Assembly: GCA_028279445.1 (NCBI GenBank)
Contig: JANQNT010000023.1
Location: forward strand, 310,001-374,000
Length of the DNA stretch: 64,000 bases
From: Tepidamorphaceae bacterium
GTDB taxonomy: Bacteria; Pseudomonadota; Alphaproteobacteria; Rhizobiales; Tepidamorphaceae
Direction of reading: 5' to 3'
The translations under genes and the position numbers were made by a program. The first letter of the stretch is position 1. The number at the start of each line of letters is the position of its first letter. Positions 7,210 to 62,125 of this stretch are shown here, in pieces. The notes beneath the pieces are model-generated. The model did no database searches and was not told the DNA's origin. It saw nothing but the letters and a program-made list of their open reading frames with translations.

Positions 7210-7833
7210 ATGCTGCAGGACGCGTCCGACCAAACCAAGCCTGAGCGGGCGCTCGATGCACTGCGCAAGCGCATCTGTCTTGCAGACCCGGGTGAGGCTC
7301 TGCCTCTTCACGAAGGCATGTTGGCCGAAGAATTCGGCATGTCGCGCACGCCTATCCGTCAGATATTGCAACGGCTCGCCTATGAACGGCTGGTGGAGAT
7401 CAGGACAGGCGTGGGCACGGTGGCCGCGGTCATGGATCAAGCCCACCGCCCTCGCGATCTCATCACGCATCAGGGCCTAGTTCGCACAATTCTGGCGCAT
7501 CCGTTGGGCGAACTCTCTGTCAGTCAGCATGCCGACATCATTGCACTTGGCGCATTGATCGCCAGCGCGGACAAGCTGGATGCGTCTCTGCATTTCGAGA
7601 TACGCGCCCGTCTTCTGGCCGTTCTTGGCGGCCTGATCGCTGACCCGATCCTCAAGGATGCATTTCTGGCTGCCCACTGGCGCGTCATCCGCTGGCACAT
7701 GCACGATGTCGCTCTCGACCAGGCCCAAGCCTTGAAGTCGACGCAGCGCCTGGTCAGCAGTGTCGCGTCCTATGACGCACGCAGCAGCGCTGATCTGTTC
7801 GGCAGAATTCTGGCTGGTGATCTAGCGCCGTAG
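7210..7833 (+). CDS. GntR-family transcriptional regulator, divergent from aapQ
   Basis: This is a 207-residue DNA-binding regulator. The winged-helix domain covers about residues 8-75, with the recognition helix in FGMSRTPIRQILQRLAYE. The rest (about 80-207) has the helical character of the FCD ligand domain, but the usual histidines of the metal site are not evident and the last helix is short. So the effector pocket may be atypical. ATG 7210 is chosen because GGGAAGG precedes it closely. Earlier in-frame starts (7006, 7141) would place the coding region over the operator palindromes. It is transcribed away from aapQMJ and probably represses them until the transported amino acid, or a product, is present. 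Confidence 0.8.
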   Translation: MLQDASDQTKPERALDALRKRICLADPGEALPLHEGMLAEEFGMSRTPIRQILQRLAYERLVEIRTGVGTVAAVMDQAHRPRDLITHQGLVRTILAHPLGELSVSQHADIIALGALIASADKLDASLHFEIRARLLAVLGGLIADPILKDAFLAAHWRVIRWHMHDVALDQAQALKSTQRLVSSVASYDARSSADLFGRILAGDLAP

Positions 7834-7883
7834 AATTCGGCTTTCCCGCCAATCGAAAACCTGGTGCGCTCAATCGGCGAAGG

Positions 7884-8054
7884 TCAGCCGGAAGTGGACA
7901 ACAGAAGATCATGGCGACTGTGCGTCACGTTTGATCCCAGCCCTGCCCCTGAATGGGGCGCGTTGCAACCGAGGCCCAAACGCAGCCTTGCGATGATCAC
8001 GGGAAGAATCTGGTGCCAATGCCCTGACACAGGCCTTGCTTCCAGTTTGCTCAT
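7884..8054 (-). CDS. small ORF of unknown function, doubtful
   Basis: This is a 56-codon frame starting MSKLEARPVSGHWHQILPVI behind a strong AAGGAG ribosome site (spacing about 7). No domain is recognised, and the second half has no clear protein character, so it may be the degraded start of a lost gene. It lies in the 395-bp stretch between the GntR gene and the sigma-54 upstream repeats, where nothing else was recognised. Confidence 0.2.
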   Translation of the reverse strand: MSKLEARPVSGHWHQILPVIIARLRLGLGCNAPHSGAGLGSNVTHSRHDLLLSTSG

Positions 8055-8228
8055 GCGGGGTCTCCTTGGCTCTCTTCGTGCACATATCGTGCATGTGCGA
8101 CCCTTCAAATAACTGATTTCTTTGCTTGCCATCGGCTACCAACCGCGAGCGATGTCCGGGGATTCTCCCTGTCGCGAGGGCGCCGTGCCCCGCGCCGGTA
8201 ACCGGACGGTGACGCTCGGCGTGTTCGC

Positions 8229-8263
8229 GACATTTTGTCCGCGCGGCATGGACATTTTGTCCG
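8229..8263. promoter_or_regulatory. paired GACATTTTGTCCG repeats, likely enhancer (UAS) of the sigma-54 promoter
   Basis: The 13-mer GACATTTTGTCCG occurs at 8229-8241 and again at 8251-8263. Each copy is itself an inverted repeat (GGACA-TTT-TGTCC in the second). The copies start 22 bp apart, two helical turns, so they face the same side of DNA. They sit about 85-110 bp upstream of the predicted start site of a -24/-12 promoter, the normal place for an enhancer-binding protein. The NtrC-family activator encoded at 16048 is the obvious candidate. Confidence 0.7.
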
Positions 8264-8301
8264 AACTGCCCGTCATGACAAAAGCCTGACCATTGATTCT
8301 A

Positions 8302-8315
8302 TTGATGAAAATCAA
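8302..8315. promoter_or_regulatory. FNR/FixK box, perfect consensus, beside the sigma-54 promoter
   Basis: TTGATGAAAATCAA is an exact match to the FNR/Anr consensus TTGAT-N4-ATCAA. It ends one base before the -24 element. From the sigma-54 start site its centre is near -34, so binding could hinder that promoter, or it could serve a separate sigma-70 start near 8350. An FnrN-type regulator is encoded in this window at 61141. Confidence 0.7.
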
Positions 8316-8316
8316 C

Positions 8317-8332
8317 TGGCATCCCCCTTGCT
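8317..8332 (+). promoter_or_regulatory. sigma-54 (-24/-12) promoter
   Basis: TGGCATCCCCCTTGCT fits the RpoN consensus TGGCACG-N4-TTGCW with one change (C to T at the sixth base) and one at the seventh. GG at 8318-8319 and GC at 8330-8331 have the required spacing. Transcription would begin near 8342 and leave a leader of about 260 nt before the ligase gene. The leader contains GC-rich inverted repeats, including GATGCCG/CGGCATC near 8379-8394 and AGGCCGG/CCGGCCT near 8423-8441. Confidence 0.8.
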
Positions 8333-8530
8333 TAAGGATTTGTTTACCGGTCCGTGGGGGGACGGTGACCCACCGAAGATGCCGTCCGGCATCGGGCAAC
8401 CCCGTCAACCCCCACACAAAAGAGGCCGGCGCGTCCGGCCTGCGACCCGGTCTCGGGACAGCAGGCAGCCTTGGCGTTAAAGGGCGCAAACCAAAATCGT
8501 CCCGAGTGACATCGGGCGTGGGAGGAGCAA

Positions 8531-8581
8531 ATGCCGGCAGGACGCGAGGACACGGTCCGCGCGCTCGTGGCCCATGGCTGA
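8531..8581 (+). CDS. 16-codon leader ORF upstream of the ligase gene
   Basis: ATG at 8531 stands 3 bases after GGAGGAG, by far the best ribosome site in this leader. It opens a frame encoding MPAGREDTVRALVAHG and stopping at 8581, 21 bases before the ligase ATG. The ligase has only a G-rich stretch in front. The short frame could couple or limit ligase translation. It has no amino-acid run that would suggest classical attenuation, and it may also be chance. Confidence 0.35.
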   Translation: MPAGREDTVRALVAHG

Positions 8582-8602
8582 AATGGTCGGGGGCACGCGC
8601 AC

Positions 8603-10561
8603 ATGACGGGGCAACAGGCAGGTTCCGAGAGTTTTCCGAAACTGCTTCTTCACAATGCGGCACAGCGCGGCGCACAGCCGGCGATGCGCGAAAAGCGGCG
8701 CGGCATCTGGCGCACGCAGACCTGGCAGGATTACGCCGCCGAGGCCAGTGCGCTGGCGGCGGCACTGTCCGACCACGGCCTGAAGAAGGGCGATCACGTC
8801 GCGTTCGTCTATGACAATCGCCCGCGGCTCCTGATTGCCATCGCCGCGGCCCAGGCGCTCGGCGCGGTCGCCGTTCCGCTCTATCAGGACGCCTCCGGTG
8901 AAGAGCTGGCAGAACCCTTGCGGAGCACGGGCGCCACCCACGTCTTCGCCGAGAACCAGGAGCAGACCGACAAGATCCTGGAGGTGCTGCCCACCTGCCC
9001 GTCCATACGCTGCATCGTCTACGACAACGACCGCGGCATGAGCCAGTACAAGCAGGCGGAGCTGGTCGGCTACGACACCCTGCTGGAACAAGGCCGCAAG
9101 GCATCGGGTGAAGGCAGCGGCTTCCTGAAAGAGGCGGCCGAGCAGGTCGGCAGCGACGACGACGCCTTCGTCTTCTTCAGCTCCGGCCTCAACAAGTCGG
9201 CCAATGGCGCCGTCTTCACCCATGCAGCGCTGATCGAGCGGGCGCGGGTGCTGGCGGCGACCGAAAAGCTCACCGACAAGGACGTGACGCTTGCCTACCT
9301 GCCGCCGGGTTGGGCAAGCCAGACCCTGCTGAGCTACGTGCAGCCGATGGCGACCGGCTTTTGCGTGTGCTGCCCGGAGGCCTCCGACACCTTGCTGTCG
9401 GACCTGCGCGAGATCGCGCCGAGCTATCTGCTTGTCACGCCGCGCATGCTCGATGCGATTGTCTCACAGGTGGACACGCGCATGGAGGAGACCGGCGGTC
9501 TCAACCTGGCGCTCTACGAGCGGGGCGTGAAGGTCGCGCAGCGCGTCAGCGACCTCACCCACGCCGGCAAGAGCGTCCCCTTCGGCGACCGGCTGGCGAA
9601 GACGGCCTGCGAGATCCTGGTCTATGGCCCGCTGCGCGACGCGCTGGGCATGAGCAAGCTCCGCCTGGCCTACACCGCCGGCGATGCCATCGATCCCGAC
9701 ATGCTGATGTTCTTCCGCTCCATCGGCATCAACCTGAAGCAGGCCTATGGCGCGACCGAGACCGGCGTGTTCGTCACCGTCCAGCGCAACGGCGACGTCA
9801 AGCCGGACACGCTCGGCACGCCGCTTGATGGTGTCGAGCTGTCATTCTCGCCCAAGAACGAAATCCTGGTGCGCGCGCCGGGCCTTCTCAAGGCCTATCA
9901 CGGCAACGCGAAGGAGACGGCCAAGGCGCTCGACGCCGATGGCTGGTTCCACACCGGCGACATGGGTCATGTCGGCGACGACGGCCATCTGCGCATCGTC
10001 GACCGGATGAGCGATGTCGGCACGCTCAAGGACGGCACGCTGTTCGCGCCGCGGCCGATCGAGAACAAGATCCGCTTCTCCCCATTCGTGCGCGAGGTGG
10101 TGGTCTATGGCGACGGGCAGGACCATGTCTGTGCCCTCATCGACATCGACACCCTGGCGGTCGGCCGCTGGGCCGACACCCATGAGCTTCCCTACATGGG
10201 TCACACCGATCTCGCCTCGCAGGAGCCCGTCTACGGGCTGATCGGCGACTTCGTTGCCGAGGTCAACGGCGAGATGGCGGGCGATCCGGCGCTGGCCAAG
10301 TGCCAGATCGAGCGCATCCTGCTGCTGCCGCAGGAACTGAGCGCCGACGACGGGCTGCTGTCGCGCACCGGCAAGCTGCGCCGCCATGCCATCGCCAAAC
10401 GCTACAGGGCGCTGATCGACGCGATCTTCGCCGGTGCGGACAACGTCCCCTTCGATATCGGCATCGAGCATGTCGGCGCGGAAGGCGAGGTCCATACCGA
10501 CGGGCTGAAGATACGCAACGTCAAGACCGTCAACGTCAGCCAGATGAGGAAAGCGGCATGA
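8603..10561 (+). CDS. AMP-dependent synthetase/ligase homologue with degenerate P-loop
   Basis: This is a 652-residue member of the ANL (acyl-CoA synthetase) superfamily of the long-chain FadD15-like type. Family blocks are present: QAYGATETG (A5), GWFHTGDMG (A7) and LSRTGKLRR near the C-terminus, which carries the adenylation lysine. The phosphate-binding A3 loop, normally SGTTGxPKG, reads FSSGLNKSANGAVFTH at about residues 191-206 and lacks the TTG and PK residues. The catalytic capacity is therefore uncertain. It may be a slow ligase, a trapping or sensor protein, or an enzyme with a changed loop. It is the first large gene behind the sigma-54 promoter, and its stop overlaps the next ATG (ATGA). 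An acyl or aromatic acid imported by the neighbouring ABC system is the likely ligand. Confidence 0.8.
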   Translation: MTGQQAGSESFPKLLLHNAAQRGAQPAMREKRRGIWRTQTWQDYAAEASALAAALSDHGLKKGDHVAFVYDNRPRLLIAIAAAQALGAVAVPLYQDASGEELAEPLRSTGATHVFAENQEQTDKILEVLPTCPSIRCIVYDNDRGMSQYKQAELVGYDTLLEQGRKASGEGSGFLKEAAEQVGSDDDAFVFFSSGLNKSANGAVFTHAALIERARVLAATEKLTDKDVTLAYLPPGWASQTLLSYVQPMATGFCVCCPEASDTLLSDLREIAPSYLLVTPRMLDAIVSQVDTRMEETGGLNLALYERGVKVAQRVSDLTHAGKSVPFGDRLAKTACEILVYGPLRDALGMSKLRLAYTAGDAIDPDMLMFFRSIGINLKQAYGATETGVFVTVQRNGDVKPDTLGTPLDGVELSFSPKNEILVRAPGLLKAYHGNAKETAKALDADGWFHTGDMGHVGDDGHLRIVDRMSDVGTLKDGTLFAPRPIENKIRFSPFVREVVVYGDGQDHVCALIDIDTLAVGRWADTHELPYMGHTDLASQEPVYGLIGDFVAEVNGEMAGDPALAKCQIERILLLPQELSADDGLLSRTGKLRRHAIAKRYRALIDAIFAGADNVPFDIGIEHVGAEGEVHTDGLKIRNVKTVNVSQMRKAA

Positions 10562-11373
10562 GCGTCAGCGCGCAAGCAGAACCCGCCAGCCGCGCATTTC
10601 CCATCGGCGAGCCGATCCTGGAACTGGACTCCATCTCGCTGCGCTTCGGCGGCGTCAAGGCCATCACCGATGTGTCCTTCGATGTGCGGGAGCATGAAAT
10701 CCGGGCGATCATCGGACCCAACGGCGCCGGCAAGAGCTCGATGCTCAACGTCATCAACGGGCTCTACACGCCGCAGGAGGGCAACATCACCTTCCGTGGC
10801 CAGCGCATCGACAACATGACGCCGGCCAAGGCGGCCTCGCTCGGCATTTCGCGCACCTTCCAGAACATCGCGCTGTTCAAGCGCATGTCGGTGCTCGACA
10901 ACATCATGGCCGGCCGCACGCTGTTCTCCCACGCCACCTTCCTGGAGGTCGCCTTCCAGCTTCCCCGCGCCCGGCGCGAGGAACGCCAGAACCGGGAGAA
11001 GGCCGAAGAGATCATCGAGTTCCTCGAGATCGAGCACATCCGCAAGACCACCGTCTCGCAACTGCCCTACGGGCTGCAGAAGCGGGTCGAGCTCGGCCGG
11101 GCGCTGGCCGCTGAGCCGCAGGTGCTGCTGCTCGACGAGCCGATGGCCGGCATGAACGTGGAGGAGAAGCAGGACATGTGCCGCTTCGTTCTCGACGTCA
11201 ACGACCACTACGGCACCACCTTCGTGCTGATCGAGCACGACATGGGCGTCGTCATGGACATTTCCGACCGCGTCGTGGTGCTCGACTACGGCAAGACCAT
11301 CGGCGACGGAACGCCGGACGAGGTCCGCAACAACCAGGACGTCATCGACGCCTATCTCGGCGTCGCGCACTGA
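10558..11373 (+). CDS. branched-chain-type ABC importer ATPase, LivG type
   Basis: This is a 271-residue nucleotide-binding subunit. The Walker A is GPNGAGKSS, the signature region reads TVSQLPYGLQKRVELGRAL (a YG-L variant of LSGGQ), and the Walker B is LLLDEPMAG followed by the H-loop in LIEHDM. The start overlaps the ligase stop as ATGA. It works on the cytoplasmic face with the LivF-type ATPase encoded at 15016. The operon is of the HAAT type used for branched-chain amino acids, but also for aromatic acids, amides and urea in other bacteria; the linked acyl-ligase homologue argues for a carboxylic acid here. Confidence 0.9.
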   Translation: MSVSAQAEPASRAFPIGEPILELDSISLRFGGVKAITDVSFDVREHEIRAIIGPNGAGKSSMLNVINGLYTPQEGNITFRGQRIDNMTPAKAASLGISRTFQNIALFKRMSVLDNIMAGRTLFSHATFLEVAFQLPRARREERQNREKAEEIIEFLEIEHIRKTTVSQLPYGLQKRVELGRALAAEPQVLLLDEPMAGMNVEEKQDMCRFVLDVNDHYGTTFVLIEHDMGVVMDISDRVVVLDYGKTIGDGTPDEVRNNQDVIDAYLGVAH

Positions 11374-11382
11374 GAGTTCATC

Positions 11383-12285
11383 ATGGCTGATCTTCTGTTT
11401 TTCCTGGAAGTGCTCATCGGCGGCCTGCTTGCCGGCGTGATGTACTCGCTGATCGCGCTGGGCTTCGTGCTGATCTACAAGGCCTCGTCGGTGTTCAACT
11501 TCGCGCAGGGCGCGATGGTGTTCTTCGCGGTGCTCTCCTTCGTGGGCTTCATGGAGCTGGGCATCCCGTTCTGGGCGGCACTGCCGGTCACCGTGGTGCT
11601 GATGATCTTCGTGGGCATGGCCACCGAACGCATGGTGCTGCGCCCGCTGGTCAACCAGAGCGAAGAGACCCTGCTGATGGCCACCATCGGGCTGGCCTTC
11701 GTGCTGGAAGGCATGGCGCAGTTCCTGTGGGGCGTCGAGGTGCGCCGTCTCGATCTCGGCATTCCCGATGTGCCGATGGCGTGGCTGGCCGACACCACCG
11801 GCATCTTCGTCAGCGTGTTCGACGTGGTGGCCGGTGTGGTGGCCGCGATCATGGTGATCGCGCTGGCGCTGCTGTTCTCCAAGACCAAGGTGGGCCTGGG
11901 CCTGCGCGCGGTGGCCGACGGCCATGCCGCGGCCATGTCGATCGGCATTCCGCTGAAGCAGATCTGGATGCTGGTCTGGGCCACCGCGGGCATCGTCGCG
12001 CTGGTCGCCGGCATGCTGTGGGGCGCGCGCAACGGCGTCCAGTTCGCACTGGTCTGGCTGGCGCTCAAGGCGCTGCCGGTGCTGATCATCGGCGGCTTCA
12101 CCTCGGTGCCCGGCGTCATCATCGCCGGCCTGATCGTCGGCGCCTCCGAGAAGCTCGCGGAAGTCTATATCGGCCCCTATTTCGGCGGCGGCATCGAGCT
12201 TTGGTCGCCCTACGTGCTGGCCGTCATCTTCCTGATGTTCCGGCCCGAAGGCCTGTTCGGCGAAAAGCACATCCGAAGAGTCTAG
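11383..12285 (+). CDS. branched-chain-type ABC importer permease, LivH type
   Basis: This is a 300-residue, eight- to nine-helix membrane protein of the LivH family, typical in length. It opens with FFLEVLIGGLLAGVMYSLIA and contains the family block ALGFVLIYKASSVFNFAQGA. The C-terminus has IIGGFTSVPGVIIAGLIVG, which is the usual conserved loop. It begins 9 bp after the LivG-type gene and is followed 49 bp later by the LivM-type gene. Together with LivM it makes the channel of the importer. Confidence 0.92.
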   Translation: MADLLFFLEVLIGGLLAGVMYSLIALGFVLIYKASSVFNFAQGAMVFFAVLSFVGFMELGIPFWAALPVTVVLMIFVGMATERMVLRPLVNQSEETLLMATIGLAFVLEGMAQFLWGVEVRRLDLGIPDVPMAWLADTTGIFVSVFDVVAGVVAAIMVIALALLFSKTKVGLGLRAVADGHAAAMSIGIPLKQIWMLVWATAGIVALVAGMLWGARNGVQFALVWLALKALPVLIIGGFTSVPGVIIAGLIVGASEKLAEVYIGPYFGGGIELWSPYVLAVIFLMFRPEGLFGEKHIRRV

Positions 12286-12334
12286 CGACACGTCCACGGC
12301 GCCCCGCCAAACCGCAGATTGGGAATACGCAGTC

Positions 12335-13402
12335 ATGTACTATCGTCAAGCCGGCCAGTTCTACACGACCTACTCCCAGGACTCGCGCATCATCCCGGTC
12401 CGAGAGGACCGCTGGATCATCTATGTGGTCGTGCTGGCGGGGTTCTGCCTCGTGCCGTTCTTCGCCAGCGACTACTGGCTCAGCGGCATCCTGATCCCGT
12501 GGCTGGCGCTGTCGCTGGTGGCGCTCGGCCAGAACATCCTGATGGGCTACACCGGCCAGCTCTCGCTTGGCTCGGCGGGCTTCATGGCCGCGGGCGCATT
12601 CGCCTGTTACAACATCGAACTCAGGATCGAGTGGATGCCGTTTTTCGGCTCGCTCATCCTCTCTGGCATCATCGCCGCCATGATCGGCATCGTCTTCGGA
12701 CTGCCGAGCCTCAGGGTGCGCGGGCTCTACCTGATGGTGGCGACCCTCGCCTCGCAGTTCTTCATCATCTGGGTCATCGACAAGTTCGGCTGGTTCAAGA
12801 ACTACGACAGCTCCGGCATCATCACCGCCCAGGACATCGTCATCTTCGGCAAGTCGTTCACCACGCCGGCGGAGGAATACCTCGTCTGCCTGTTCGTGTG
12901 CGCGGTGATGACCGTTATTGCGCTCAACATGGTGCGCGGGAGCGTGGGGCGAAACTGGATGGCGGTGCGGGATATGGACGTCGCCGCGGAGGTGATGGGC
13001 ATATCCCTGCTGAAAACCAAGCTGCAGGCCTTCGCCATCAGTTCGTTCTATTGCGGTGTCGGCGGCGCGCTGTTCGCGTTCGCGTTCCTGAAGTCGATGG
13101 AGCCGGTCGCCTTCGACATCCTGCTGTCGTTCCGCATCCTGTTCATGGTGATCATCGGCGGGCTCGGCACCATCATCGGCTGCTATCTGGGCGCCGGCTT
13201 CATCCTGCTGATGCCCGTGTTCCTCAACATCTTCTTCCATGCCGTCTTCGGACAGGCCGTCGACGCGACGCTCACCTCGGCCCTGGAGCAGGTCATCTTC
13301 GGCGTGATGATCATCCTGTTCATGATCTACCAGCCGCTCGGCATGGCGCGAATACTCGAGATCATGCAGGAGCGGCTTCGCAAGTGGCCATTCAAGATCT
13401 GA
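12335..13402 (+). CDS. branched-chain-type ABC importer permease, LivM type
   Basis: This is a 355-residue polytopic membrane protein of the LivM family. The long hydrophilic N-terminus (about 25 residues) is followed by helices. The family block NILMGYTGQLSLGSAGFMAA is seen at about residues 67-86, and the C-terminal IGGLGTIIGCYLGAGF block is present. It is the second half of the membrane channel with the LivH-type protein upstream. A 143-bp gap follows before the binding-protein gene, with a good ribosome site for the latter but no obvious promoter. Confidence 0.92.
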   Translation: MYYRQAGQFYTTYSQDSRIIPVREDRWIIYVVVLAGFCLVPFFASDYWLSGILIPWLALSLVALGQNILMGYTGQLSLGSAGFMAAGAFACYNIELRIEWMPFFGSLILSGIIAAMIGIVFGLPSLRVRGLYLMVATLASQFFIIWVIDKFGWFKNYDSSGIITAQDIVIFGKSFTTPAEEYLVCLFVCAVMTVIALNMVRGSVGRNWMAVRDMDVAAEVMGISLLKTKLQAFAISSFYCGVGGALFAFAFLKSMEPVAFDILLSFRILFMVIIGGLGTIIGCYLGAGFILLMPVFLNIFFHAVFGQAVDATLTSALEQVIFGVMIILFMIYQPLGMARILEIMQERLRKWPFKI

Positions 13403-13545: not shown

Positions 13546-14904
13546 ATGATGCCAACAAGCTTGTTGCGACGGGTCGCGCCCGTCAGTGCCGCGGCATTCG
13601 CGGCCGCGGCGATGCTCGTGTCGCCGATGGCAATGCCCACCGAGGCACAAGCCGCCGAGCAATACATGGCTGTGCCAAGCAGCCGTGTCGGACCGTTCTC
13701 CGCCATGGGGACCGGCTATTACGGCGGGATCATCGACTACATGACCTATGTGAACATGAACGGCGGCATCAACGGCGTCATGTTCACCTGGCAGGAGTGC
13801 GAGACCGAATACAACGCCAAGCGTACGGTCGAGTGCTTCCAGCGCCTGCTGACCGGGCCGAACGGGCAGAGAACGCTCGTCTTCGACACGCTCGGCACGC
13901 CCGGTGCCTACGCGGTGATCAACCGCATGGCGGAGGAAGAGGTCGTGCTGGCCCAGTACGGCTACGGCCGCACGGATGCCGCTGACGGCACGGTCTGGCC
14001 GTGGGTCTTCAACGCCGCCAGCCACTACTGGTCGCAGATCGGCATGAAGCTGAAGTTCATGGCCGAGCAGGAAGGCGGCGTGGAGAACATGAAAGGCAAG
14101 AAGATTGTCCATCTCCACATTGACTCCGCCTATGGCCGCGAGCCGCTGCCCGCCATGCGCAAGATCACCAGCGACTGGGGCATGGAACTGGTCGAGATCT
14201 CGATTCCCCCGCCCGGTCTGGAGCAGCAGTCGCAGTGGCTGCAGATCCGCCGCGAGCGTCCCGACTGGGTGACGTTCTGGGGCGCGGGCTCCGGCATGAA
14301 CGCCACCGGCATGACCAACGCCGCGCGCATGGGCTTCCCGCGCGAACGGCTGGTCTACGTCACCTTCGGCGGCGCCGAGGAGGACATGGTGCCGGCCGGC
14401 GACGCGGCCAAGGGAACCTTCGTGGTCGCCAACGCGGTGCCGGGTCGTGACTTCCCGCTGGTGAAGAGCATCCTCGACAAGGTCTATGGTGCCGGCAAGG
14501 GCAACATGGAAAACCCCGATCGCGTGGGCCAGGTGTACTGGAACCGCGGGCTTGGGGCGGCCGTGATGTGGGCTGAGGCCATTCGCAACGCCCAGCGGAT
14601 CCACAACAAGGAAGGCCAGCCGGTCACCGGCGCGGAGTTCCGCGATGGCTACGAGGCGATCAACATGACGCCGGAGCGGCTTGAGGAACTCGGCATCACC
14701 GGCATGGTCGCACCCTTCGCGCTGTCCTGCGAGAAGCACGACGGTGCCGGCGAGTTCCGCATGATGCAGTGGAACGGCGAGAAGTTCGATATCGTTTCGG
14801 ACTGGATGGGCCCGCCCGATCCGACCTTCATCCGCCAGCTCGTCGAGGATTCCGCCGGCAAGTTCGCCGGCGAGAATAACATCACGCCGAAGAACTGCTC
14901 GTAG
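13546..14904 (+). CDS. periplasmic substrate-binding protein of the HAAT importer
   Basis: This is a 452-residue type-I periplasmic binding protein (Peripla_BP_6). An export signal spans about residues 1-38, ending in TEAQAA. ATG 13546 follows AGGGAGG at 7-8 bases; a second ATG lies at 13549. The mature domain contains YYGGIIDYMTYVNMNGGING and RRERPDWVTFWGAGSGMNAT. Two short unusual points are the paired cysteines (about C81 near the N-lobe and the C-terminal NCS end). It recognises the imported compound and is probably made in excess, as a strong hairpin follows its stop codon. The ligand cannot be named from sequence. Confidence 0.9.
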   Translation: MMPTSLLRRVAPVSAAAFAAAAMLVSPMAMPTEAQAAEQYMAVPSSRVGPFSAMGTGYYGGIIDYMTYVNMNGGINGVMFTWQECETEYNAKRTVECFQRLLTGPNGQRTLVFDTLGTPGAYAVINRMAEEEVVLAQYGYGRTDAADGTVWPWVFNAASHYWSQIGMKLKFMAEQEGGVENMKGKKIVHLHIDSAYGREPLPAMRKITSDWGMELVEISIPPPGLEQQSQWLQIRRERPDWVTFWGAGSGMNATGMTNAARMGFPRERLVYVTFGGAEEDMVPAGDAAKGTFVVANAVPGRDFPLVKSILDKVYGAGKGNMENPDRVGQVYWNRGLGAAVMWAEAIRNAQRIHNKEGQPVTGAEFRDGYEAINMTPERLEELGITGMVAPFALSCEKHDGAGEFRMMQWNGEKFDIVSDWMGPPDPTFIRQLVEDSAGKFAGENNITPKNCS

Positions 14905-15015: not shown

Positions 15016-15873
15016 ATGAACATCGCCGCGACATCCGCCGTTGAAGAACGCGCCCCGGTCACCGACGCCGCCGGGCAGCCGATCCTGGCCGTCAAGAACA
15101 TCGAGGTGATCTACGATCAGGTCATCCTCGTGTTGCGCGGCGTCTCGCTCAACGTCCCCAAGGGCAGGATCATCGCCCTGCTTGGCGGCAATGGCGCGGG
15201 CAAGAGCACGACGCTGAAGTCGATCTCGACGATGCTGGCTTCCGAGCGCGGCAAGGTCACCAAGGGATCGATCGAGTTCGACGGCGAACGCACCGATCAG
15301 CTAACGCCCAACGATATGGTCAACAACGGCATGGTGCAGGTGATGGAAGGGCGCATGTGCTTCGGCCACCTCACCGTCGAGGAGAACCTGATCGCCGGCG
15401 CCTACACGCGCAGCCTCAGCCGCAGTCAGATGCGCGAGGCGCTGGATCAGGTCTATCACTACTTCCCGCGGCTCAAGGAACGCCGTTCCAGCCTGGCCGG
15501 CTACACCTCCGGCGGCGAACAGCAGATGACGGCGATCGGGCGCGCCATGATGGCCACGCCCAAGATGCTGCTGCTCGACGAACCCTCGATGGGGCTGGCA
15601 CCGCAGATCGTCGCCGAGATTTTCGAGATCGTGCGCGACCTCAACCAGAAGGAAGGCGTCAGCATCCTGCTGGCCGAGCAGAACACGTCGGTGGCGCTGA
15701 AATATGCCGACTTCGGCTACATCCTGGAGAGCGGGCGCATCGTGATGGACGGCCCGGCCAAGGCGCTGGCCGAGAACAAGGACGTCAAGGAATTCTACCT
15801 TGGCATGTCGTCGGAGGGCCGCGAGAGCTTCCGCAACCGCAAGTCCTACCGCCGCCGCAAACGCTGGATCTGA
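15016..15873 (+). CDS. branched-chain-type ABC importer ATPase, LivF type
   Basis: This is a 285-residue ATPase subunit. It has Walker A (GGNGAGKST), the signature segment GYTSGGEQQMTAIGRAMM and Walker B (MLLLDEPSMGL), then the H-loop variant LLAEQNTSVALK, where Q replaces H as is usual in LivF proteins. Compared with standard LivF (about 235 residues), it carries an extended N-terminus of about 25 residues and a basic C-terminal tail (SFRNRKSYRRRKRW) of about 20. It completes the importer with the LivG-type subunit. It is the last gene of the transport operon. Confidence 0.9.
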   Translation: MNIAATSAVEERAPVTDAAGQPILAVKNIEVIYDQVILVLRGVSLNVPKGRIIALLGGNGAGKSTTLKSISTMLASERGKVTKGSIEFDGERTDQLTPNDMVNNGMVQVMEGRMCFGHLTVEENLIAGAYTRSLSRSQMREALDQVYHYFPRLKERRSSLAGYTSGGEQQMTAIGRAMMATPKMLLLDEPSMGLAPQIVAEIFEIVRDLNQKEGVSILLAEQNTSVALKYADFGYILESGRIVMDGPAKALAENKDVKEFYLGMSSEGRESFRNRKSYRRRKRWI

Positions 15874-16047: not shown

Positions 16048-17433
16048 ATGCGACCGCAAACAGCGCGCAAGCAGCCGGCACCGAACAACACGACTGAGTT
16101 CGGTCCCTGGCTGGCGCAGGCCTCCATCCTCGCGGTGGACGACGAATTGGGCATGCGCAACTTCCTGGAGCGTACGCTGGGGCCGCGCTGCAAGCATATC
16201 GCCACGGCCGCCGACACCGAAGAGGCGGCGCGCATCCTCGACGAGCACCATTTCGACGTGCTCATTCTCGACAACATCATGCCGGGCAAGAACGGCGTGG
16301 AGTGGCTTTCCGAGCAGCGCGCGGTGGGCTTTTTCGGCGATGTCATCCTGATCACCGCCTATGCCGACCTGGAAACGGCGATCCAGGCGCTGCGCGCCGG
16401 TGCCGCCGATTTTGTGCTGAAGCCGTTCCGCTCCAACCAGATGCTCAACGCCATCGCCCGCTGCCTGGACCGCGGCCGGCTGCAGCGCGAGAACTACGTG
16501 CTGCGCTACGAGCTCAAGTCGAGCTCCGACCAGCGGCTGAGCGACAAGCTGATCGGCGAGTCGGAGGCAATCCGCCGCGTGCGCGACGACATCGCCCGGG
16601 TGGCGCCATTGCCCACCTCGGTGCTCATCACCGGCGAATCCGGCAGCGGCAAGGAGGTCGCCGCGCGTTCGGTTCACGCCCTGTCCGACCGCAACGACAA
16701 GCCGTTCGTACCGGTCAACTGCGCCGCCATTCCCGCCGACATGATCGAGAGCGAGCTGTTTGGCCACGTCAAGGGCGCGTTCACCGGCGCTCAGGCGAGC
16801 CGTGACGGGTTGTTCATGCATGCGCAGGGCGGAACGCTGTTCCTGGACGAGATCGGCGAATTGCCCACACCCATGCAGAGCAAGCTGCTGCGCGTGCTGG
16901 AGGACCGGCGGGTGCGTCCGGTCGGCGCGGAGCGCGAGATACCGGTCGACCTGCGCCTGCTGTTCGCCACCAATGCCGATCTTGGCGAGCACGTGGAGAG
17001 CGGCCGGTTTCGCGCCGATCTGTATTTCCGCATCAACGTCATGCAGATTGACCTGCCGCCGCTCCGGGACCGGCGCGACGACGTGCATGAGTTGGCGACG
17101 CTGTTCATGCACCAGCTTTCGCAGCAGTTCGGTACACCGGCGGTGCCGATCAGCGCCGAGGAGCGGGCGCTGCTGGAACGCTATGACTGGCCGGGAAACG
17201 TCCGCGAGCTGCGCAACCTGGTCGAGCGCACGCTGATCCTGGGTCGGCTTCCCGACGAGTTCGGGCGCGACATATCGATGGCTGCGGGACCAGAGGAGAG
17301 TTTGGCGGACATCGAACGACGCCATATTCTTGCAGTGCTGCGCGAAGTGAACGGAAATCGCGCGGAGGCCGCCCGCAGGCTCGGCGTTTCGAGGAAGACG
17401 ATTGACCGTAAGTGCGCACGTTGGAACATCTGA
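16048..17433 (+). CDS. sigma-54-dependent response regulator (NtrC family)
   Basis: This is a 461-residue activator with three domains. The receiver (about 25-140) has the acidic pair D31/D32 and phospho-acceptor D75 in LILDNIMPG, plus the lysine in VLKPF. The AAA+ domain (about 165-395) has Walker A GESGSGKE and the sigma-54 contact loop GAFTGA at about 244-249. The Fis-type helix-turn-helix ends the protein (NRAEAARRLGVSRKTIDRK). A GGAG site precedes ATG 16048. Its kinase overlaps the 3' end. The sigma-54 promoter with paired upstream repeats at 8229-8332 is the natural target, so it probably switches on the ligase and transporter operon. Confidence 0.9.
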   Translation: MRPQTARKQPAPNNTTEFGPWLAQASILAVDDELGMRNFLERTLGPRCKHIATAADTEEAARILDEHHFDVLILDNIMPGKNGVEWLSEQRAVGFFGDVILITAYADLETAIQALRAGAADFVLKPFRSNQMLNAIARCLDRGRLQRENYVLRYELKSSSDQRLSDKLIGESEAIRRVRDDIARVAPLPTSVLITGESGSGKEVAARSVHALSDRNDKPFVPVNCAAIPADMIESELFGHVKGAFTGAQASRDGLFMHAQGGTLFLDEIGELPTPMQSKLLRVLEDRRVRPVGAEREIPVDLRLLFATNADLGEHVESGRFRADLYFRINVMQIDLPPLRDRRDDVHELATLFMHQLSQQFGTPAVPISAEERALLERYDWPGNVRELRNLVERTLILGRLPDEFGRDISMAAGPEESLADIERRHILAVLREVNGNRAEAARRLGVSRKTIDRKCARWNI

Positions 17434-19444
17434 GGCGTCGGCGGATGACCGCCGGCAACCCACCGGACGTTCGGTGCGCTTCCGGTTGCTCGCCATCGCG
17501 CTGCTGCCGACCCTGGTGATCCTGCCGCTGATGCTGGGCATCTCGATTGCCCGCTGGAGCGCGAAATTCGACGAGGCGCTGATTGCCAAGGTCAATGGCG
17601 ACCTGACCATCGCGCATCAGTATCTCTCACGCATTCTCGAAAGCACCGAGGAGAGCCTGCAGGCGCTCGGTGCCTCGGCGCATTTCCGTGCGTTGGTCGA
17701 TAGCGGCGCGGCGATCGACCTGTTCCTCAACGAGAGCCGCCGCGATCTGGGGCTCGACTTCCTGTATGTGGTGACCGCAGACCAGGACATCTTCGCGGCC
17801 GCCCCGCTGACCGGCTCGGCAACGCGGCGCACCGACTGGCCGATCATCGTCTCCGCACTGCGGGGCATCCCGCGCACCGAAATCGACCTGTTCTCCAACG
17901 AGGAACTGGACCATCTCTCGGACGCCATGGCGGAGCGCTCCCGTCTGGCGCTGGTGCCGACACCGAACGCGGTGCACACCGAACGCACCGAAGAGACCCG
18001 TGGGATGGTGATCCAGTCTGCCGCACCAATCACCTTGCGCAACGGCGCGCGCGGGGTGCTGGTCGGCGGTATCCTGCTGAACCAGAACCTGGTGTTCATC
18101 GATACGATCAACGATCTGGTCTACAAGGAGGCGAGCCTGCCGAAGGGCAGCCGGGGCACGGCGACACTGTTCCTCGACGATGTGCGCATCACCACCAATG
18201 TGCGCCTGTTCGAAGGGCGCCGGGCGCTCGGCACGCGCGTCTCGGCGGTGGTGCGCGAGACCGTGCTCGGCAAAGGGCGGGTCTGGCTCGACAGCGCCTT
18301 CGTCGTCAACGACTGGTACATTTCCGCCTACGAGCCCGTCGTCGACAGCTTCGGCAAGCGCATCGGCATGCTGTATGTCGGCTTCCTGGAAACGCCGTTC
18401 CAGCGCACCAAGTACGAGACGCTGATCACCATCGTACTGGCGTTTCTGCTGATCACCGCCGCCAGCATACCGATCTTCCTGCGCTGGGCGCGCGGCATCT
18501 TCATGCCGCTGGAGCGGATGACCGAGACGATCGCCACCGTGGAGCGGGGCAACCTCAGCGCGCGCACGGGACTGGCCGGCGCGAGCGACGAGATCGGCCG
18601 CGTCGCGGAACATCTCGACCTGCTTTTCGATCGCCTGCAGGAACGCGACAAGCAGTTGCGGGAATGGAACCAGGAACTCAACGACCGAGTCGATGAGCGA
18701 ACCCGGGAACTGCGGCTGGCCAACCGCCAACTCGAGGCAACCACCAAGCAACTGATCATGTCGGAGAAGCTCGCCGCCATCGGCGAGATCACCGCCGGCG
18801 TCGCGCACGAGATCAACAACCCGATTGCGGTGATGCAGGGCAACCTGGAGATCGTGCGCAACGTGATGGGCAAGAAGGCAAAGCTCGCCGAGACCGAGCT
18901 CAGCCTGCTCGACGAGCAGATCCACCGCATCAGCCAGATCATCACCAAGCTGCTGCAGTTCGCCAAGCCCGAGGAGTATGCCGAGCACGTCGAGCAACAC
19001 GCACCGCAGGACGTCGTCGCCGACTGCCTGCCGCTGGTGAAGCACCTGCTGCACAAGGCGGAGATCGAGATCGTGCGCGACGACAAGGCGACGCGCCAGA
19101 TCTTCATGAACCGCACCGAATTGCAGCAGGTGCTGGTCAACCTGATGGTCAACGCGATCCACGCCATGCCCGACGGCGGTACGCTGACGCTCAGCACCTA
19201 TGACATGGCCCAGGACGAGCGGCCGGGCGTCGCCCTCGACGTGGCCGATACCGGCGTTGGCATGTCGCCGGAACTGCTCGACAAGGTGTTTGATCCCTTC
19301 TTCACCACCAAGCGCCAGCAGGGCAATGGTCTCGGCCTGTCGATCAGCCAGACACTGGTGGCGCGTCAGGGGGGCAACATTTCGGTGGAAAGCGAGCCGG
19401 GCGTGGGTACCGTGTTCACGATCTGGCTGCCGGAAGCCACCTGA
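17402..19444 (+). CDS. membrane sensor histidine kinase, partner of the sigma-54 regulator
   Basis: This is a 680-residue kinase. Helix 1 (about 26-48) and helix 2 (about 340-362) enclose a periplasmic Cache-like sensor of about 290 residues. A HAMP segment, a coiled coil and the DHp domain follow; the phospho-accepting histidine is about H469 in VAHEINNPIAVMQGN. The ATPase domain has the N box NLMVNAIHAMPDGG, G1 DVADTGVGM and FFTTK. The proposed start is TTG at 17402, preceded by GAGGAAG at good spacing; it overlaps the regulator gene by 32 bp. GTG near 17474 is the next choice. The sensor domain probably detects the same external compound the importer carries. Confidence 0.88.
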   Translation: MTVSAHVGTSEASADDRRQPTGRSVRFRLLAIALLPTLVILPLMLGISIARWSAKFDEALIAKVNGDLTIAHQYLSRILESTEESLQALGASAHFRALVDSGAAIDLFLNESRRDLGLDFLYVVTADQDIFAAAPLTGSATRRTDWPIIVSALRGIPRTEIDLFSNEELDHLSDAMAERSRLALVPTPNAVHTERTEETRGMVIQSAAPITLRNGARGVLVGGILLNQNLVFIDTINDLVYKEASLPKGSRGTATLFLDDVRITTNVRLFEGRRALGTRVSAVVRETVLGKGRVWLDSAFVVNDWYISAYEPVVDSFGKRIGMLYVGFLETPFQRTKYETLITIVLAFLLITAASIPIFLRWARGIFMPLERMTETIATVERGNLSARTGLAGASDEIGRVAEHLDLLFDRLQERDKQLREWNQELNDRVDERTRELRLANRQLEATTKQLIMSEKLAAIGEITAGVAHEINNPIAVMQGNLEIVRNVMGKKAKLAETELSLLDEQIHRISQIITKLLQFAKPEEYAEHVEQHAPQDVVADCLPLVKHLLHKAEIEIVRDDKATRQIFMNRTELQQVLVNLMVNAIHAMPDGGTLTLSTYDMAQDERPGVALDVADTGVGMSPELLDKVFDPFFTTKRQQGNGLGLSISQTLVARQGGNISVESEPGVGTVFTIWLPEAT

Positions 19445-26862: not shown

Positions 26863-27945
26863 TCATTTCTCCGAGTCGCCGGGTGTCGCCCTTGATTCGC
26901 CCCTCTGCAGCGCCCGGAAGCGCGTGCTGGCGGTGACGACGAACCGTGTCTCGTCGGAGGATATATCGCGCGCGATGAACAAAGTGGCAAGGTTGAGCCG
27001 CTCGGCAAGCTCCAGCCCCTTTTCCTGACCGAGTACCAGCAGCGCGGTGGCCCAGGCATCGGCCAGCATGGCCGTTTCGGCCACAACCGTGACCGACGCG
27101 GTGGTGTGGGTGACCGGGCGACCGGTCTGCGGATCGATGATGTGCGAGTAGCGTACCCCGCCCTGCTCGAAGTAATTGCGGTAGTCGCCGGATGTCGCCA
27201 TGCCAAGGCCGGTGAGATCGATGATCTGCTCCACCCGCCGGCTGCCTTCGTGCGGGCGCTCGATGCCGATGCGCCAGCGGTTGCCGTCGGGGTTGGTGCC
27301 GGAGGTGATCAGATCGCCGCCGATCTCGACCATGAAGTCGTTGAGCCCGAGCCGGTTGAGCGTCGCGGCGACCTCGTCGACGCCGTAACCTTTGGCGATG
27401 GCCGCGAGATAGACGGTTGCTTCGGGCTCACGCTTGGTCAGCGAGAACGGGTCGGTGGCCAGCGACAGCAGCCGGCTTTGGCCGACAAGGGTCTGGGCTT
27501 GTGCAATCGCTTCATCGGAGGGAACCGGACTGTCGGGCCGCCGCGCGCCGAAACCCCAGAGCTCGATCAGCGGCGCAACCGTCACATCGAACCGCCCAAG
27601 GCTGTCGGCGTGCACCTCGCCCGCCGTGCGCATCACCGCCGCCAGCTCGGCGGAAATCTCGAACGGCCCGGTGCCGGCATAGGCATTGAAGCGCGACACT
27701 TCTGAACGCTCGTCCCAGTTCGACATCCTGGCGTTGACCTCGGCAAGCGTCGCTTCGACGGCGGCGCGCACCTCCCCTGCGTCCAGACGCCCCTGGCGGT
27801 CAAAGGCGACGATGTTGTAGGTGGTGCCCATCGTCTCGCCGCTGATCCGCAGCGCATCGCTTTGCGAACCGCATGCGACGAGGAGCAGCACCAGGCCAAC
27901 AACGAGAAAGCGCATCATCCCTGCCCGCCGGTTCAATCGGCCCAT
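26863..27945 (-). CDS. apbE: FAD:protein FMN transferase, lipoprotein
   Basis: This is a 360-residue periplasmic enzyme that attaches FMN covalently to threonines of NqrB and NqrC. A lipoprotein signal ends in LLLVAC, so it is anchored to a membrane. The family blocks SGETMGTTYNIV, AIAKGYGVDEVA and YSHIIDPQTGRPV are present. ATG 27945 gives a basic N-terminus; ATG 27918 or 27915 (MMRFLVVGLV) are possible alternatives, and none has a strong ribosome site. It is divergent from nqrA, with a 198-bp gap holding a perfect palindrome. Confidence 0.9.
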   Translation of the reverse strand: MGRLNRRAGMMRFLVVGLVLLLVACGSQSDALRISGETMGTTYNIVAFDRQGRLDAGEVRAAVEATLAEVNARMSNWDERSEVSRFNAYAGTGPFEISAELAAVMRTAGEVHADSLGRFDVTVAPLIELWGFGARRPDSPVPSDEAIAQAQTLVGQSRLLSLATDPFSLTKREPEATVYLAAIAKGYGVDEVAATLNRLGLNDFMVEIGGDLITSGTNPDGNRWRIGIERPHEGSRRVEQIIDLTGLGMATSGDYRNYFEQGGVRYSHIIDPQTGRPVTHTTASVTVVAETAMLADAWATALLVLGQEKGLELAERLNLATLFIARDISSDETRFVVTASTRFRALQRGESRATPGDSEK

Positions 27946-28062
27946 GTGCGAAGGTAGATCAACAGCCCGTCATTCATGGTACAAATCGTCGGTTCACGGG
28001 AAAAAATGACAAAATGCGTCGGCCATATGGGTTGTAAGTCGCATTGGAATTAGTAGAAGACG

Positions 28063-28086
28063 AATCTAGGGTCGTGACCCTAGATT
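28063..28086. promoter_or_regulatory. 24-bp palindrome between apbE and nqrA
   Basis: AATCTAGGGTC-GT-GACCCTAGATT has perfect 11-bp arms and a 2-base spacer. It lies 57 bp before the nqrA start and 117 bp from the apbE start, in a divergent promoter region. It may be an operator for the NQR module, or a dispersed palindrome; similar TAGGGTCATGACCC-type sequences are recalled from other rhizobial genomes. Confidence 0.5.
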
Positions 28087-28143
28087 GGCCGATGCGAATC
28101 CGCGCTGAAGGCGATCCAAAAAAGACAAAGCGACGAGAACCGC

Positions 28144-29487: not shown

Positions 29488-29491
29488 TCCC

Positions 29492-30700: not shown

Positions 30701-31496
30701 GCAGCGCAGAGGATTGATCCGCCGCTTCCTCGAGATGTCGCCGGACTCGGTGCCAAAGACGATTTTCGTCGCGGTGGCGGTCTGCCTGTGCGCCTCGATG
30801 GTGGTGTCGGCGACGGCGGTGGCCCTGAGGCCGCTGCAGGCGACGAACGCGCTGCGCGACAAGCAGGTCAACATTCTCCAGGTCGCCGGCATCTATCAGC
30901 CCGGCATCGACGTGTCGGAAGCCTTCCAGGCGTTCGAGGCGCATGTGCTCGAACTGGCCACCGGCGAGTTCGCCGACGACCGCTTCGACGCCGCCACGTT
31001 CGACGATCTCGCCGCCGCAGACGACCCGGAGCTGTCGGTCGCGCTGACCGACGATCCGGCCTCCATCGGGCGGCAATCGCGCTACATGACCGTCTACCTC
31101 CTGCGCGACGAGAACGGCGCGCTCGACAAGGTCATCCTGCCGCTACACGGCTACGGGCTGTGGTCGACGCTGTACGGCTTCATCGCGCTGGAAGAAAACG
31201 GCAACGATATCTACGGGCTGCAGTTCTACGAGCATGCCGAGACGCCGGGACTGGGCGGGGAGGTCGACAACCCGCGCTGGCGCGCGCTGTGGCAGGGCAA
31301 GAACCTGTTCGACGCGGACGGCGAACTGCAGATCACCGTTGCCAAGACGCCGCCGCCGGCCGGCGAAGAGTTCTTCATCGACGGCCTTGCGGGCGCGACG
31401 CTGACCGCGCGCGGCGTCGACAACCTGGTTCGTTTCTGGATGGGTGAGACCGGCTATCAGCCCTTCCTCGCCAACCTCAAGGAGGGGAACATCTGA
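30684..31496 (+). CDS. nqrC: Na+-NQR subunit C
   Basis: This is a 270-residue subunit with one N-terminal helix (about residues 24-45) and a periplasmic FMN-binding domain. The covalent FMN motif is [14 protein letters not shown] near residues 235-248, with the threonine after AGA as acceptor. The block [15 protein letters not shown] is family-typical. ATG 30684 is chosen; it overlaps nqrB. Its stop overlaps the nqrD ATG as TGATG. It receives electrons from NqrD/E and passes them to the FMN of NqrB. Confidence 0.93.
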
Positions 31497-32757: not shown

Positions 32758-32772
32758 GGAAACACACTCCCG

Positions 32773-33993: not shown

Positions 33994-34047
33994 CGTCGCG
34001 GTCCCTGCGCACCCTCGAGAACACCGCCTAGGGCATGTCTTGTTGCT

Positions 34048-34766: not shown

Positions 34767-34770
34767 GCGC

Positions 34771-41559: not shown

Positions 41560-41583
41560 CCCCGCCCTGCATGGAGCCGCCCG

Positions 41584-59163: not shown

Positions 59164-59177
59164 TTGACACAGATCAA
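59164..59177. promoter_or_regulatory. FNR/FixK box between ccoN and the hemerythrin-like gene
   Basis: TTGACACAGATCAA lies in the divergent gap and can serve both directions. Class-II start sites would be near 59129 (ccoN side) and 59212 (hemerythrin side). The latter lies just before the chosen ATG at 59236, which helps fix that start. Confidence 0.82.
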
Positions 59178-59785: not shown

Positions 59786-61144
59786 GTGATCGATCCGGCC
59801 CGGATTTTCGAGGTTCATTCCCGGCCGGTTCCCCGCTACACGAGCTATCCGACCGCGCCGATGTTCGCCGATGTCGGCGAAAGCGGCATGACGCAGGACT
59901 TCCTGGATACGGTCGATCCGCGCCAGCCCGTCTCGCTCTACATCCACATTCCCTTCTGCGACCGGTTGTGCTGGTTCTGCGGCTGCCACTCCAAGCAGAC
60001 CCGCAAGTACGCGCCCGTGGCCGCTTATGTCGACACGCTGGTGGCGGAACTGGAACTGGTCGGGCGCGCGCTTGGCATGCGCCCCAGGCTCGGACACGTA
60101 CATTTCGGCGGCGGCTCGCCCAGCCTGCTGCGCGAAGCGGAATGCGCCAAGCTCCACACCGCGATCGCCCGGCACATGGTCATCGATACGCAGACCGAGA
60201 TCAGCGTCGAGATCGATCCAAGCGACGTCAACGAGGACACACTTGCCGGACTGCTGGCGATGGGCGTGACACGGGCGAGCATCGGCGTGCAGGATTTCGA
60301 TCCGCTGGTGCAGGACGCGATCAACCGGCCGCAGACCTTCGCGCAAACCCGCGCCGTGGTCAGCCAGTTGCGCAAGGCCGGTATCGCCTCGGTGAACATC
60401 GACGCGCTCTACGGGCTGCCGTTGCAGAGCGCCGACCGGCTGATGCGCACCATCAATCAGGTCATCGCGCTGGAGCCGGACCGCGTCGCGCTGTTCGGCT
60501 ACGCCCATGTTCCGTGGCTGAAACCCCACCAGCGGCTGATCCGCGAGCAGGACCTGCCGGGCACGCTGGAGCGTTTCGAGCACGCTTGCGCGGCCGGCGA
60601 CCGGCTGGCCGATGCGGGTTACGTGCGGATCGGTATCGATCACTTTGCCCGGCCCGATGACGCCCTGGCGCGCGCCCAGGCATCCGGTGAGCTGCATCGC
60701 AACTTCCAGGGCTACACCACCGACGCCTGCGAGGTGCTGATCGGCATCGGCGCCTCGTCCATCAGCCGCTTTCCCGGCGGCTACTTGCAGAACATCGTGC
60801 CGACCGGTCGCTACAAGGCGGCCATCGAAGCCGGCGAGCTACCGGCCAGCCGGGGACTGCGGCTCAGCGACGACGATCATGTGCGCGGCTTCATGATCGA
60901 ACGGCTGATGTGCGATTTCGAGATTTCCTACGCCGTCCTGCGCAAGCGCTTCGGCAGCAGTGCCACGCCCTACATCACCGAATGCCGCAAGGTCGCGGCC
61001 CTCGAGCGCGAAGGCCTGTGCGAGAGCGATGACGCGGCATTCCGCATACCTTTCCAGGCGCGGCCCTTCGCGCGGATCGTCGCGGCGCGCTTCGATGCCT
61101 ATCTCGCCGCCGACAGCACGGTGAAATTCTCCAAGGCCGTTTAG
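59786..61144 (+). CDS. hemN: oxygen-independent coproporphyrinogen III oxidase
   Basis: This is a 452-residue radical-SAM enzyme of heme synthesis. The cluster ligands are C58, C62 and C65 in HIPFCDRLCWFCGCHSKQ. Family blocks HFGGGSPSLL and SIGVQDFDPLVQ follow. The GTG at 59786 is preceded by GGAG. It works without oxygen, which fits its place under an FNR box with the oxidase genes that need heme. It overlaps the convergent fnrN gene by 4 bp. Confidence 0.95.
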   Translation: MIDPARIFEVHSRPVPRYTSYPTAPMFADVGESGMTQDFLDTVDPRQPVSLYIHIPFCDRLCWFCGCHSKQTRKYAPVAAYVDTLVAELELVGRALGMRPRLGHVHFGGGSPSLLREAECAKLHTAIARHMVIDTQTEISVEIDPSDVNEDTLAGLLAMGVTRASIGVQDFDPLVQDAINRPQTFAQTRAVVSQLRKAGIASVNIDALYGLPLQSADRLMRTINQVIALEPDRVALFGYAHVPWLKPHQRLIREQDLPGTLERFEHACAAGDRLADAGYVRIGIDHFARPDDALARAQASGELHRNFQGYTTDACEVLIGIGASSISRFPGGYLQNIVPTGRYKAAIEAGELPASRGLRLSDDDHVRGFMIERLMCDFEISYAVLRKRFGSSATPYITECRKVAALEREGLCESDDAAFRIPFQARPFARIVAARFDAYLAADSTVKFSKAV

Positions 61145-61869
61145 GCTTTCTCGCAGGCGTCGAGCAGGCGGTCGAGGTTCGGCACGACGACCGTGCGGTT
61201 GTTCTCGACCTGGATGATGCCGGCCTTGCGCAACCTGGTGATCTGGCGGCTGACCGTCTCGATAGTGAGCCCCAGGAAGTCGGCGATATCGGCGCGCTTG
61301 AGCGGCAGCTCGAAACGGATCGAGTCGGTGTCGAAGTCGAACTCGGGATTGATGTGGGTGGCGATCAGGTAGAGGAAGCTTGCCACCTTCTCGCTGGCCG
61401 ACTTGCGGCCCAGCGTCAGCATCCACTCGCGCGCCTCGTCGAGTTCCTTCAGCGCCTGCTCGTGCAAGCGGTGCTGCATCTCCGGCGATTCGTCGATCAG
61501 CTCCTCGATCGCCGAGCGCGGGAAGGAGCACACATTGACCGACGTCGCCGCTTCGGCGGAGATGTCGCTCTGACGCTTGAATGGACGGCCGAGAAAGTCC
61601 GGCGCGAACTGCAACCCGACGATCTGCTGGCGCCCGTCGGCCATCAGCTTGGTCAGCTTGACGACACCATTCATGATGTTGGCGTAGCTGTGCACCTCCT
61701 CGCCCGCGGGGACCAATTCCTCCTCGGGCCGGAAGTCCTGGCGGCTGGTGTGCTTGCTCAGGCGCAGCAGTTGATTGGCATCGAGCGCGCCGCACACACC
61801 CTTGTGGCGCGCCTCACAGGCGCGGCAAACAGCCGGCACGTCCGAGTTATGGATGTCCTTGCGTCGCAT
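61141..61869 (-). CDS. fnrN: oxygen-sensing CRP/FNR regulator, FnrN/FnrL type
   Basis: This is a 242-residue regulator. Cysteines C15, C18 and C26 (VCRACEARHKGVC) and C114 (VNVCSFPR) can hold the [4Fe-4S] cluster that senses oxygen. The helix-turn-helix reads ADIADFLGLTIETVSRQITR with the ETVSR recognition residues of the FNR class. The ATG at 61869 is chosen; the frame is open to 62022. It should bind TTGAT-N4-ATCAA boxes, four of which are found in this window. No perfect FNR box was seen in its own leader. Confidence 0.93.
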   Translation of the reverse strand: MRRKDIHNSDVPAVCRACEARHKGVCGALDANQLLRLSKHTSRQDFRPEEELVPAGEEVHSYANIMNGVVKLTKLMADGRQQIVGLQFAPDFLGRPFKRQSDISAEAATSVNVCSFPRSAIEELIDESPEMQHRLHEQALKELDEAREWMLTLGRKSASEKVASFLYLIATHINPEFDFDTDSIRFELPLKRADIADFLGLTIETVSRQITRLRKAGIIQVENNRTVVVPNLDRLLDACEKA

Positions 61870-62125
61870 CGTCCGCACGCCTTGACCAGAAAACTCGCCA
61901 CCTTGCGTCAGGATAGGCAACAGTCCTTGTCCCCACAATGCACGCGTCGGAAAAACATCGGCCGAAATACCTCTGTACCGGAAAGCCACTCTGACACGCC
62001 GAACGTCACCGGCACTGGACACATGTCCGTCGTCGGGACTCTGGATGTGGTAAGGACTCTAGCATCTGGCCAGGCCACCGTGATGTGAACCTTCGTCGCA
62101 GTCGACCAAAATCCGGGGTCGTCGC

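Follow-up and report, generated by a model that had tools for sequence, protein, structure and literature searches.

Within the 64,000-nucleotide window of the Tepidamorphaceae bacterium genome analysed here, a forward-strand operon encodes an acyl-CoA ligase, Liv-type ABC transporter components, an NtrC-family response regulator and a sensor histidine kinase (Table 1). The annotation thereby supports the original prediction that the operon carries a sigma-54 activator together with its kinase. Among eight genomes examined from the same family, the kinase is present in this one only, so the operon was probably acquired, and by its sequence it looks like a horizontally acquired mosaic. No sigma-70-like promoter was found inside the operon, which fits a single transcript and hence suggests autoregulation of the regulator and kinase genes.

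Several further observations concern the operon and its surroundings. LivG, LivH and LivM (window 10558-13402) are 69-80% identical to sequences on Comamonas sp. MAG contigs (L033, L039), the corresponding figure for the ligase being ~42%. The family's canonical Liv/ligase operons (L113-L119, including the paralogue C1 in the present genome) share an upstream CTGTCTGTCAA motif ~150-250 bp 5′ of the ligase start, and in several of them this motif directly follows the end of a CRP-type regulator gene; CTGTCTGTCAA may represent a separate conserved regulatory site. Elsewhere, at window 26863-41910, genes for Rnf/Nqr-type subunits and ApbE precede an antiporter cluster that has domains of the MbhD/MbhE type.

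Table 1. Regulatory elements and genes discussed in the text, in window coordinates.
Feature	Position	Strand	Remarks
Enhancer site 1 (distal), CGACATTTTGTCC	8228..8240		Equivalent at -85 to -90 from TGG in 11/12 tabulated homologous promoters
Enhancer site 2 (proximal), GGACATTTTGTCC	8250..8262		Equivalent at -65 to -68 in 11/12 tabulated homologous promoters
IHF-type element CTGACCATTGATT	8286..8298	-	2 mismatches to YAANNNNTTGATW; at -31 from TGG
Perfect FNR/FixK-type box TTGATGAAAATCAA	8302..8315		Centre -34.5 from predicted +1; lineage-specific
Sigma-54 -24/-12 element TGGCATCCCCCTTGCT	8317..8332	+	
Predicted sigma-54 transcription start	8343	+	From promoter spacing, 12 bp after -12 C
AMP-binding acyl-CoA ligase	8603..10561	+	
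LivG-type ABC ATPase	10558..11373	+	Approximate start, ORF open from 10300
LivH-type permease	11383..12285	+	
LivM-type permease	12335..13402	+	
Substrate-binding protein (Peripla_BP_6)	13546..14904	+	78% identity to its counterpart in the G112 operon
LivF-type ABC ATPase	15016..15873	+	
NtrC-family response regulator (REC, sigma-54 AAA+, Fis HTH)	16048..17433	+	Proposed binder of the twin sites
Sensor histidine kinase, sCache_3_3 domain	17402..19444	+	R-x2-T-x12-T triad at residues 262-278
FnrN-like regulator	61141..62022	-	Presumed binder of the FNR box

Promoter and enhancer sequences

The -24/-12 element proposed earlier is present and matches TGGCAY-N5-TTGCW perfectly, with GG and GC 10 bp apart; it is one of three perfect occurrences of TGGCAYNNNNNTTGCW genome-wide. 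The genome encodes one RpoN, and the element is almost certainly a sigma-54 promoter. From the predicted start, a leader of 260 nt would extend to the ligase ATG. An Rfam search of 7800-8700 gave no match.

The two repeat copies described 22 bp apart upstream of this promoter were confirmed in the sequence: GACATTTTGTCCG occurs at 8229-8241 and 8251-8263 (22 bp from start to start), and as GACATTTTGTCC the copies form twin palindromes 67-89 bp 5′ of the perfect -24/-12 element. Their core, the 11-mer GACATTTTGTC, has only these two copies in the 3.41 Mb genome. A better repeat unit is GGACA-N3-TGTCC, which occurs with one mismatch in the distal site and perfectly in the proximal one. The 22 bp spacing corresponds to two helical turns and therefore places the twin sites on the same face of the DNA. 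In addition, a 10-bp direct repeat, GGACGGTGAC, at window 8204-8213 and 8360-8369 (156 bp apart) brackets the enhancer-promoter region, probably by chance.

Between the enhancer sites and the promoter lies an IHF-type element that the original prediction had overlooked. It departs from the consensus WATCAANNNNTTR at two positions and so falls short of an IHF site by that measure; nine homologous promoters deviate at one position or none. In those nine, the consensus begins at -30 or -31 from the TGG, and in Rhizobium SL42, three Shinella records and genome G112 a perfect element stands at -30.

Comparison with homologous promoters

Ligase homologues were rejected as a comparison set, being at most 44% identical and, where inspected, located on Liv operons that lack the regulator and the promoter, and were replaced by the kinase. 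The regulators and kinases most closely related to those of the operon (67-70% identity) occur in Shinella, Rhizobium, Sinorhizobium and other Alphaproteobacteria; for the kinase, proteins of Rhizobium sp. SL42, Shinella and Sinorhizobium sojae fall within this range, and seven genomes in a 385-genome sample of the class encode proteins 54-72% identical to it. Orthologous pairs share 75-80% identity in the REC domain and 79-87% in the sCache domain. Promoters of these relatives display two GGACA-N3-TGTCC sites 20-23 bp apart, a -24/-12 element ~65 bp downstream and, mostly, an IHF-type site at -30. When homologous promoters were tabulated with the TGG of the -24 element as anchor, allowing one or two mismatches per GGACA-N3-TGTCC site, both sites stood at the standard positions in 11 of 12, the exception being G274 (locus L181) with 42-bp spacing. 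Across the sample, the paired-site pattern occurred in five of 385 genomes, four of them among the eight with the kinase (Fisher p 4e-7).

The genes behind this arrangement vary. An OFA-family carboxylate transporter gene follows it in Rhizobium SL42, four Shinella records, Sinorhizobium sojae and three other genomes. In G112 it precedes a related Liv ABC operon, then the regulator, the kinase and an NAD-linked formate dehydrogenase, and in Azospirillum ramasamyi, where the regulator/kinase pair is more distant (46%), it precedes the fdnG formate dehydrogenase-N operon (fdnGHI). In Alloyangia (L165) and Sagittula (L166), both Rhodobacterales, formate dehydrogenase genes also lie nearby, but the repeats there are no more than degenerate, which we count against our preferred explanation.

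One check proposed with the original prediction was whether the repeats are conserved upstream of orthologous ligase genes. They are absent at ligase homologues and present beside regulator orthologues, where they precede other target genes; conservation of these sequences tracks the regulator pair, not the ligase. Comparative sequence shows the twin sites, the -24/-12 element and the IHF-type position to form one putatively functional module that accompanies this pair. Because both the architecture and the paired sites recur beside orthologous regulators, we have high confidence that the twin repeats are the enhancer of the operon's own response regulator, encoded from 16048, as first proposed; the sites are conserved with the regulator at a fixed distance from -24/-12. 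It is very improbable that they belong to an unrelated regulator and lie near the operon by accident. The paired pattern also turns up in G334, a genome that lacks the kinase, and nothing else specific favours an accident, whereas the sites co-occur with the regulator pair across Alphaproteobacteria and keep their spacing to -24/-12 before different targets.

Two side observations come from the Rhodobacterales. In L165 and L166 the orthologous kinase closes a formate dehydrogenase cluster (fdh3B, DUF3305/3306, DUF6505) and has no adjacent regulator gene. In Paracoccus sp. MA, the stretch between the OFA and regulator genes (L220 7434-7507) holds three sites of the GGACA-N3-TGTCC type, of which two are spaced by 22 bp; this is consistent with the same module in this order.

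Probable ligand of the sensor kinase

The sensor region of the kinase matches sCache_3_3; measurements on a chemoreceptor with a domain of this type have shown that it binds formate (PMC12415202). Its residues R262, T265 and T278 match in spacing the formate-binding residues R142, T145 and T158 of PacF, as reported in PMC12501870. This R-x2-T-x12-T triad in a Cache_3-type domain, the combination we took as the sequence mark of a formate receptor, is invariant in 20 of 20 kinase orthologues, for which reason the ligand is probably formate; the formate dehydrogenases and OFA transporters among the neighbouring genes add to this argument. The chemoreceptor structures PDB 8py1 and 8py0, which we take to stem from the work on PacF, match the sensor stretch weakly (E about 0.004) and contain the same triad. 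A single-sequence structure prediction of the sensor was discarded (pLDDT 34). Overall, we regard formate as probably the signal, whereas oxalate or another small carboxylate may be the ligand instead; the acyl-CoA ligase and Liv transporter as targets are not accounted for by formate.

The FNR box and relation to known systems

The perfect FNR box originally described was recovered, as was an FnrN-like protein in the same window. The box is one of four perfect occurrences of TTGATNNNNATCAA genome-wide, spans -41 to -28 relative to the predicted start and ends one base from the -24 element. The FnrN-like protein has a C-x2-C...C motif and an ETVSR recognition helix, so that both sequence marks sought for an FNR site, namely TTGATNNNNATCAA and an FNR-type protein with an E..SR helix and clustered cysteines, occur in the genome. 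Of the three remaining perfect boxes, two lie 5′ of ompW and of a universal-stress gene, typical FNR/Anr targets; this box type is therefore probably in use in the genome, and we consider it likely that the box is bound by FNR in vivo. Separately, an FNR-like box, TTGACACAGATCAA (complement TTGATCTGTGTCAA), was noted at window 59164-59177 near a hemN-like gene and fnrN, and a perfect box, TTGATGATCATCAA, at G000 C24:65830 (L184 1831), where the adjoining ORFs have no Pfam match.

Under the refuting condition set with the original prediction, namely lack of conservation of the repeats and box in close relatives, the repeats pass but the FNR box fails. None of 13 homologous promoters contains one with fewer than two mismatches, and their best FNR-like matches have two mismatches, stand at another position and coincide with the IHF core. 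The box is therefore lineage-specific, possibly a product of chance, and phylogenetic support for it is lacking. A functionless box generated by chance from the AT-rich IHF/spacer region would also fit two other observations: (i) IHF-type sites there already provide TTGAT, and (ii) when the criteria are relaxed, nine of 385 genomes contain FNR-like boxes no more than 20 bp from a -24/-12 element, including the present one, some of them within genes. The reversed-pattern control for that scan gave 0 hits but was unfair, since the reversed halves contain stop-codon words, and we claim no enrichment from it. On the other side, a perfect box arose in only 29 of 40,000 dinucleotide shuffles of the 53-bp spacer (8264-8316) and in two of 4,000 shuffles of the entire intergenic stretch (7835-8602), and the rarity of the box in the genome and the targets behind two of its counterparts likewise speak against chance. 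A chance origin, and with it lack of function, is thus unlikely.

If the box is functional, FNR could in principle activate a second, sigma-70-type class II (-41.5) promoter, with sigma-54 and formate acting in the presence of oxygen and FNR in its absence. The box is perfect, the resulting start would lie near 8350, at a distance of 7 bp from the one predicted for sigma-54, and overlapping promoters of different sigma type have a precedent in Bradyrhizobium fixR-nifA. However, a sigma-70-like promoter scan of the + strand of 7800-8620, which takes in the place ~22-25 bp downstream of the box where a class II -10 element would be expected, was empty, and hexamers around 8334-8345, compared by eye, match TATAAT at no more than three of six positions. 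Alphaproteobacterial -10 elements are loose and one may have escaped such a scan; we find this reading unlikely. FNR might otherwise serve as a DNA bender that replaces IHF, making the loop oxygen-dependent and activating sigma-54 transcription anaerobically. CRP-family proteins bend DNA strongly, and the IHF-type element, perfect in five homologous promoters, has two mismatches here with the FNR box immediately downstream. Nevertheless, the promoters of L180, L181 and L221 have weak or no IHF matches yet lack an FNR box, and the box reaches to one base from -24, within the usual E-sigma-54 footprint, which makes bending quite improbable.

We instead favour a blocking role. With the box centred at -34.5 and no convincing -10 found, blocking fits better than replacement of sigma-54 transcription; the box also touches the expected E-sigma-54 footprint at its upstream edge, which further favours interference. 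Most likely, then, the FNR box represents a lineage-specific anaerobic block on sigma-54, with repression as the effect of binding a finely balanced call. Inhibition of the sigma-54 promoters dctA and glnAp2 by a CRP-family protein provides a precedent (PMC3900584). The broader proposal of an oxygen gate, whereby an FNR site was added in one lineage to a formate-type module, between the IHF position and -24, and FNR acts on E-sigma-54 itself and not on a sigma-70 promoter, by blocking it or replacing IHF as bender, is tentative, and we rate it slightly below an even chance.

Taking these elements together, we think it reasonably probable from the sequence that the operon is an autoregulated sigma-54 operon under a two-component system, most likely one that senses periplasmic formate, with the FNR box as an added anaerobic hold. 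Specifically, formate would bind the sCache domain of the kinase, the phosphorylated regulator would occupy both sites cooperatively, and DNA bending would carry it to E-sigma-54, switching on the ligase-ABC transporter-regulator-kinase operon with positive feedback. At low oxygen, FNR seated on the box would most probably keep the promoter off, either by getting in the way of E-sigma-54 at its upstream edge or by deforming the loop. The originally suggested integration of a ligand signal with oxygen status accordingly stands in part: the enhancer-promoter arrangement is conserved and formate is the likely ligand, while the FNR component is plausible and confined to this lineage.

Our literature search, of incomplete coverage, found no formate two-component sigma-54 system, no overlapping FNR and sigma-54 sites and no such pair or geometry; an NtrC-type two-component system with formate-sensor residues in several alphaproteobacterial families is apparently undescribed. 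The present analysis uses sequence to predict where this regulator pair binds and which class of targets it controls, so that sigma-54 formate sensing becomes directly testable in laboratory strains of Shinella or Sinorhizobium. If the box works, it would be a clear example from nature of FNR action on E-sigma-54 and would show how an oxygen input joins a conserved enhancer module. Escherichia coli FhlA and HyfR are one-component cytoplasmic formate sensors and sigma-54 activators, alike in signal and output, whereas here a periplasmic sensor and a two-component relay would be used. NtrC-family promoters of the XylR-Pu type share two activator sites, an IHF-type element in the spacer and -24/-12, but the promoter described here has another palindrome, compact spacing (65-90 bp 5′ of -24) and an FNR box abutting -24. 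The R-x2-T-x12-T triad and Cache_3-type sensor are common to PacF, McpF and an sCache_3_3 gut receptor (PMC12501870, PMC12415202); those proteins are chemoreceptors, whereas here the domain belongs to a histidine kinase whose partner is of the NtrC type. Finally, CRP at dctA, glnAp2 and Pu is likewise a CRP/FNR-family protein with a negative effect on E-sigma-54, acting there (PMC3900584 and references therein) through remote sites, through recruitment or with no recognisable site. In the present promoter, by contrast, a perfect FNR box lies directly at -24, and the signal would be oxygen.
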